A DNA stretch of 38,270 nucleotides, from the NCBI GenBank assembly GCA_017848755.1, contig JAFIHI010000156.1, forward strand, positions 1 through 38,270. The letters are read 5' to 3'. Numbering within the stretch: the first letter of the stretch is position 1; each line of letters starts with the position of its first letter. The notes under the pieces were generated by a model. It saw only the letters and a list, made by a program, of their open reading frames with translations, had not been told where the DNA came from and did no database searches. Below, piece by piece: positions 20,807-21,626 of the stretch. Both the position numbers and the translations under genes were made by a program. Origin of the DNA: Nakamurella sp. Its GTDB lineage: Bacteria > Actinomycetota > Actinomycetes > Mycobacteriales > Nakamurellaceae.

Positions 20807-21626
20807 GGCGCTCCGCGACAGCATCGGCTGCGTCAAGGTCGGCTGCGTCAGGATCGGCACTGTCATCGACGGCTGTGCCGCTCGCAGTATCGCCGTCGAG
20901 GATCGCCCGATAGGCCTGGGCGGCGGCCAGTTGCTCCGCCTGCTTCTTCGTGTGCCCCGTGCCGGCACCGAGCACTTCGCCGCCCACCGAAGCACGCGCG
21001 GTGAACGTCTTGTCGTGATCAGGGCCGGACTCATCGACCGTGTAGACGGGCACGCCGGCGCCGGTACTGGCCGACAGTTCCTGCAGCGAGGTCTTCCAAT
21101 CCAGCCCGGCGCCCAGCCGCGGCGCCGCGATCAACAGGTCGTGGAACAGCCGTAGGACCACCGCGCGTACCGGCTCGAGCCCGTGCTGCAGGTACAGCGC
21201 ACCCAGCAGTGCCTCGACCGCATCCGAGACGATCGACGCCTTCGACCGGCCGCCGGTGAGTTCTTCGCCGCGGCCGAGCAGCAGCAGATCGCCGAGACCC
21301 AGGCTCGCACCTACCGCGGCGAGCGCATGCATGTTGACGATCGACGCCCGCAGCTTCGCGAGCTGCCCCTCGGGCAGGTCGGGATGGTCACGGTACAGCT
21401 GATCGGTGATGACGATGCCCAGGACCGAGCCACCCAGGAACTCGAGCCGCTCATTCGTCGGCAGCCCCCCGTGCTCGTAGGCGTACGAGCGATGGGTGAG
21501 TGCCAGTTCCAGGGCGTCGGCCTCCAGGTCCAGTCCGACACGCCGCAGGAGCGTCGACCGCTGGCCGCCGAGGGTGTGCGATGCCGCAGGCGCCCCTGGG
21601 ACCGAGTCAACCCCGGGGTCGGTCAT
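20790..21626 (-). CDS. rnc: Ribonuclease III with an altered catalytic motif
   Basis: Double-strand-specific endoribonuclease for rRNA maturation and RNA decay. From the ATG at 21626 it is 278 residues: RNase III domain (about 25-170) and double-stranded-RNA-binding domain (about 180-250), then an Asp/Ala-rich tail. The signature reads NERLEFLGGSVL, where the family has NERLEFLGD. Gly66 (codon GGC, plus-strand 21429-21431) therefore replaces the Asp equivalent to E. coli Asp45, a metal-binding catalytic residue. Glu59, Glu62, Asp135 and Glu138 (equivalents of Glu38, Glu41, Asp114 and Glu117) are intact. The dsRBD motifs are intact, including GHTKKQAEQLAA. It is either a binding-only RNase III, a strongly weakened enzyme, or a sequence error. 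It sits between rpmF and fpg in one operon. Confidence 0.93.
   Translation of the reverse strand: MTDPGVDSVPGAPAASHTLGGQRSTLLRRVGLDLEADALELALTHRSYAYEHGGLPTNERLEFLGGSVLGIVITDQLYRDHPDLPEGQLAKLRASIVNMHALAAVGASLGLGDLLLLGRGEELTGGRSKASIVSDAVEALLGALYLQHGLEPVRAVVLRLFHDLLIAAPRLGAGLDWKTSLQELSASTGAGVPVYTVDESGPDHDKTFTARASVGGEVLGAGTGHTKKQAEQLAAAQAYRAILDGDTASGTAVDDSADPDAADLDAADAVAERRAGAS

Follow-up and report, generated by a model that had tools for sequence, protein, structure and literature searches.

The RNase III dimer carries two metal ions in each active site. A passage on the family (PMC8708148) lists E38, E41, E65, E100, D114 and E117 (E. coli numbering) as conserved acidic residues. Engineered replacements of E. 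coli Asp45 and its counterparts are among the closest described systems to the one considered here. The E. coli D45A enzyme is tabulated as having no activity in vivo and low activity in vitro while binding RNA (PMC8708148, Table 1), and a 30,000-fold loss is cited for mutations of D45 (PMC8386462). In S. coelicolor, the D70A enzyme (Gravenbeek and Jones 2008, as cited in PMC10126417) binds RNA without cleaving it and, according to the same source, fails to restore antibiotic production to a null mutant. A D70A strain has served to pull down RNA targets in this species (PMC5775266). The S. aureus D63A enzyme is described as reduced in cleavage with binding kept (PMC3386247). For E. coli D45A and C. 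jejuni D44A, Mn2+ is reported to restore cleavage in vitro (PMC3839596). These accounts of the E. coli, S. coelicolor and S. aureus mutants, as far as the quoted passages go, agree with the original prediction that loss of Asp45 function strongly lowers cleavage and leaves RNA binding in place.

RNase III domains that do not cut are also described in eukaryotes, namely trypanosome KREPB6 and its partners (PMC9508840) and maize RNC1 (a passage of PMC8708148). These are old, fixed and specialised paralogues, whereas the gene described below is the sole RNase III found in its genome. A search of the open-licence literature found no report of a natural bacterial replacement of Asp45.

The rnc gene and its catalytic-site codon

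We analyzed a stretch of 38,270 nucleotides from a Nakamurella sp. assembly (hereafter, the window) that contains an rnc gene with Gly at the Asp45 position. The relevant features are as follows.

20790..21626, minus strand: rnc, a 278-aa RNase III when read from the ATG at 21626 (TIGR02191, PF14622, PF00636, PF00035)
21420..21455, minus strand: RNase III signature motif, NERLEFLGGSVL, with Gly66 inside
21429..21431, minus strand: codon GGC, Gly66, at the E. coli Asp45 position; GAC in the sister genome
21213..21224, minus strand: intact DAVE, D135 to E138, whose ends correspond to E. coli D114 and E117; coordinates from the ATG at 21626
20907-21098, minus strand: dsrm (PF00035) profile match in rnc
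20814..21005, minus strand: a portion of the dsRNA-binding, C-terminal region of rnc, beyond the nuclease domain

Residues are numbered from the ATG at 21626, which gives a constant offset of 21 from the E. coli numbering. An alternative upstream start, GTG at 21719, would give a protein of 309 aa; the database copy of the protein (P0001) has 278 aa. Residues 1-30 from the ATG (21537-21626, minus strand) look unconstrained in comparison with the sister genome (dN 0.239, dS 0.217), and the true start of rnc may lie further in, or the protein may have an unconstrained N-terminal tail.

The plus strand reads gcc at 21429-21431, so that the codon of the minus-strand gene is GGC and residue 66 is Gly, just as had been claimed. 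The corresponding column holds Asp in all four of the PDB alignments listed (M. tuberculosis 2A11, T. maritima, C. jejuni and Drosha). The M. tuberculosis enzyme, for which Asp had been correctly named at this site, is the closest solved relative and aligns with residues 53-277 of the 309-aa frame. The codon in the nearest relative (genome G010, 92% protein identity; the sister genome below) is GAC, in line with the proposed GAC-to-GGC transition. The remainder of the protein, which the original prediction had described as intact including Glu138 and the dsRBD, indeed appears so. The acidic active-site residues E59, E62, E86, E121, D135 and E138, equivalent to E. coli E38, E41, E65, E100, D114 and E117, are all present. 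The protein scores 218.5 bits against TIGR02191 (the RNase III equivalog family; cut-off 166.25), and in its architecture a single RNase III domain precedes a single dsRBD (PF14622 at 69-191, PF00636 at 90-180 and PF00035 at 208-271 of the 309-aa frame). The gene is flanked by yceD and mutM, with a small gene between rnc and yceD, and this order is kept in the sister genome.

Thus, by its TIGR02191 score, domain layout, other acidic residues and gene place the protein belongs with class I RNase III, and it departs from that class in having Gly66 in the given sequence instead of the Asp45 of the signature motif. Because Gly66 replaces the catalytic Asp, we file the gene as rnc by descent and do not attach the label of a proven endonuclease; its status as a dsRNA endonuclease is only putative. 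By analogy, Gly at this site would likely act like the Ala mutants. If the base is real, we would predict an RNA-binding, cleavage-poor protein, possibly one that Mn can rescue. The S. coelicolor mutant is the nearer model, being actinobacterial and having the matching Asp changed to a small residue; however, according to the passages on it D70A is an engineered Ala, whereas the Gly of the window is a sequence reading. The same position is changed in E. coli D45A, again an engineered Ala, and the passages on that enzyme mention no Gly mutant.

The domain profiles PF14622, PF00636 and PF00035 each match the window gene alone in this assembly, which is 96.5% complete; neither a further RNase III nor a mini-III or another dsRBD gene turned up. 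The search for a compensating second rnc or mini-III, suggested along with the original prediction, therefore gave no candidate, and we set compensation aside, with the reservation that such a gene could sit in the gap left by a 96.5%-complete assembly.

Residue 66 in relatives and across species

Asp occupies the site in all 16 other genus genomes examined, and Gly in none. At a broader scale, Asp is found in 29 of the 29 relatives' loci that were read (100 relatives searched) and in 119 of the 120 best database proteins (of 8000 scored), the sole Gly being the window's own protein. At the level of the order, the tally over 397 genomes is 390 with Asp (382 called by DNA pattern match and 8 by reading the protein), one with Gly (the window), one with Val and five without an RNase III found. 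Put differently, 15 of the 397 genomes fall outside the Asp pattern: the window (Gly), G113 (Val), G004 (Asp), seven more with Asp and the five in which RNase III was not found, all of which are 57-89% complete. The Asp66 site is not variable within the order, and Gly66 is private to this one assembly. An alignment of close relatives had been proposed as a way to see whether Gly is fixed among them; it is not. A stable non-catalytic lineage would have the altered residue in common with its relatives, and none of the 16 has it. Relatives all carrying Asp, with a lone base here, is one half of the outcome that the original prediction had named in advance as speaking against it, and in the genus this is what we see.

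We then considered selection on the gene. Compared with the sister genome, the nuclease domain (residues 31-160) has 22 synonymous and 5 nonsynonymous changes (dS 0.228, dN 0.018), giving dN/dS of about 0.08; the dsRBD side (residues 161-245) has dS 0.224 and dN 0.016. These values indicate strong purifying selection on the nuclease domain. The figure of 0.238 obtained from the stop-to-stop frame includes sequence upstream of the ATG, and relaxed selection on rnc was rejected in view of the value of 0.08 for the nuclease domain. Four nuclease-domain residues (36, 66, 104 and 107) differ from the sister. Six outgroup proteins were used to polarise these differences: D66G and T107A can be assigned to this lineage and the change at 104 to the sister side, while 36 is ambiguous. 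Among 92 genus-invariant rnc residues, Asp66 alone is changed, and nothing points to a prolonged decay. Since selection is not relaxed and only Asp66 has changed among the 92 invariant residues, any loss is either recent on this lineage or not real.

To cover other taxa, the pattern E-R-L-E-F-L-G-[G/A/V]-[A/S]-[V/I/M] was scanned with all codons against 84,980 species. It requires Arg after the first Glu, and the site must be followed by [A/S] and then [V/I/M]; replacements by Asn, Glu, His or Tyr are invisible to it. There were four matches, two of which are RNase IIIs, both from MAGs. One (L034) is the RNase III of the Frankiales MAG RYN_172, with Val at the catalytic Asp and otherwise intact; the contig, position and matched bases are identical to those of the Val case in the order tally (G113), whose order-mates carry Asp. 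The other (L036) belongs to a Lysinibacillus sp. MAG and has Ala at the catalytic Asp, again in an otherwise intact enzyme. Both codons are off an Asp codon at the second base. The two cases thus resemble the rnc of the window in being otherwise intact RNase III genes one base away from an Asp codon, and they are independent of it and from other taxa. The remaining two matches (L035 and L037) were discarded as chance matches in frames without RNase III features. A Gly-only scan with GC-rich codons gave no matches; the scans may omit records close to the window's genome. Within these limits, only isolated cases were seen, and the idea of a clade of Gly (or Ala/Val) RNase IIIs was dropped. Two other cases are, we infer, about the frequency expected from rare base errors.

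Origin of the Gly codon

The quality of the assembly bears directly on how the codon is to be read. The genome comprises 259 contigs and 3.85 Mb, with 96.5% completeness and 2.5% contamination. A search for its 16S rRNA found none, which is weak evidence as the control was detected in just 9 of 14 known genomes. The assembly is presumably a short-read MAG, because a count of 259 contigs and a 16S rRNA that is not found are common in such MAGs. Outside rnc, the window's genome has 8 private changes among 2543 genus-invariant positions, and the sister has 3 among 2537 (two-sided p 0.23). Left out of these sums are two frames that are probably antisense and the doubtful frame o126; if all three are kept, the counts become 8/2761 and 3/2755. 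In the dN/dS comparison the gene labels were provisional: the frames labelled 'coaD?' and 'rsmD?' are doubtful, and the one labelled 'recG?' is pyruvate carboxylase. The ribosomal protein frames contribute 1 private change in 550 positions and rpoB 1 in 842. Those in pyruvate carboxylase fall mostly at positions that vary between distant enzymes, and look natural, at tolerant sites; one of them, Leu to Arg, is not conservative. A generally error-ridden assembly is not supported by these counts. Collinearity with the sister extends along almost the entire contig of the window, so that it is not a gross misjoin. The clean look of the assembly speaks somewhat against error, yet it is still compatible with one wrong base.

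The explanation that we favor, with a probability of roughly 60%, is that rnc is an ordinary single-copy RNase III gene with one isolated consensus error, A to G. The single A-to-G difference in a draft assembly turns an Asp codon into Gly; the base would be wrong, and in the living organism the enzyme would have Asp66 and form a normal dimer that cuts dsRNA. We prefer this because the change stands alone, falls on a site that is among the least variable in the protein, comes without relaxed selection, and recurs in the scanned species only as isolated MAG cases. The main competitor, which we consider a possible but doubtful account, is that RNase III catalysis has really been lost, recently and at strain level, with the A-to-G change present in the cell. 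The protein would then fold, dimerise and bind dsRNA while cutting poorly with Mg, and rRNA would mature slowly via other RNases. The clean look of the remaining assembly suits such a loss, as does the retention of all other active-site acids, which a very recent change predicts, and S. coelicolor D70A shows that a matching mutant binds without cleaving (PMC10126417). According to passages of PMC10126417 and PMC8708148, S. coelicolor and most of the bacteria tested can do without RNase III; given its dispensability in S. coelicolor and E. coli, a real loss could be survivable. In S. coelicolor, however, the loss is costly according to the passages on it: mutants lose antibiotics, and one accumulates 30S pre-rRNA. 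The change is moreover seen in one genome only, with Asp in the sister and every other genus member, and an inactive rnc, if commonly tolerated, should yield more than two other cases in 84,980 species, although the scan covers three replacements and one motif form.

Clearly less probable is that selection maintains a stable RNase III which only binds RNA or depends on Mn, with Gly66 fixed in the lineage. Purifying selection on both the nuclease and the dsRNA-binding parts would fit it, and so would the in vitro rescue of E. coli D45A and C. jejuni D44A by Mn2+ mentioned above; but the selection signal is common to the Asp-bearing sister and so is not dated from the change. Neither a relative with Gly nor a clade with Gly, Ala or Val has been found, and there is no evident compensating second change, the clear nuclease-domain changes on the lineage being D66G and T107A. 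Similarly improbable is the bolder form of the idea, that the only RNase III of a free-living actinobacterium is a natural Asp-to-Gly trap mutant by which dsRNA would be bound or shaped uncut, or cut with Mn only, so that ordinary RNase III cleavage would play no part in the handling of rRNA and antisense RNA. The original prediction's idea of a binding-only or compensated enzyme as a biological state was not supported: all 16 genus relatives have Asp, and no compensating gene was found. The remaining possibility, a strain mixture in which a minor variant or a second strain binned together with this one supplied the base, draws on the fragmentation and the 2.5% estimated contamination; against it speak the collinearity of the contig with the sister and a divergence that is even along rnc, and it shades into both the consensus-error and the recent-loss readings. 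We give it hardly any weight.

If the base is real, nature would have produced an equivalent of the engineered D70A and D45A trap mutants, and the effects of RNase III binding without cutting could be tested in a wild bacterium. Should it be an error, which is likelier, the case shows a base rate, with two other Gly/Ala/Val RNase IIIs in the 84,980 species scanned, both of them in MAGs. Lone losses of catalytic residues in draft genomes need reads before a pseudoenzyme label is applied.

Apart from rnc, the comparison with the collinear sister contig revealed a 773-base stretch (9626-10398) that is absent from the latter. Inside it lie two overlapping frames of 85 and 133 aa (9666-10321, plus strand), which we take to be a putative Phd-type antitoxin and a PIN-domain VapC-type toxin. 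An 857-aa frame with an apparent signal peptide (22506-25079, minus strand) lies between yceD and a DivIVA-like gene. It has no Pfam match, and no match within the 20 kb or less around rnc in 15 other genus genomes; in the sister genome it has a match of 94% identity.
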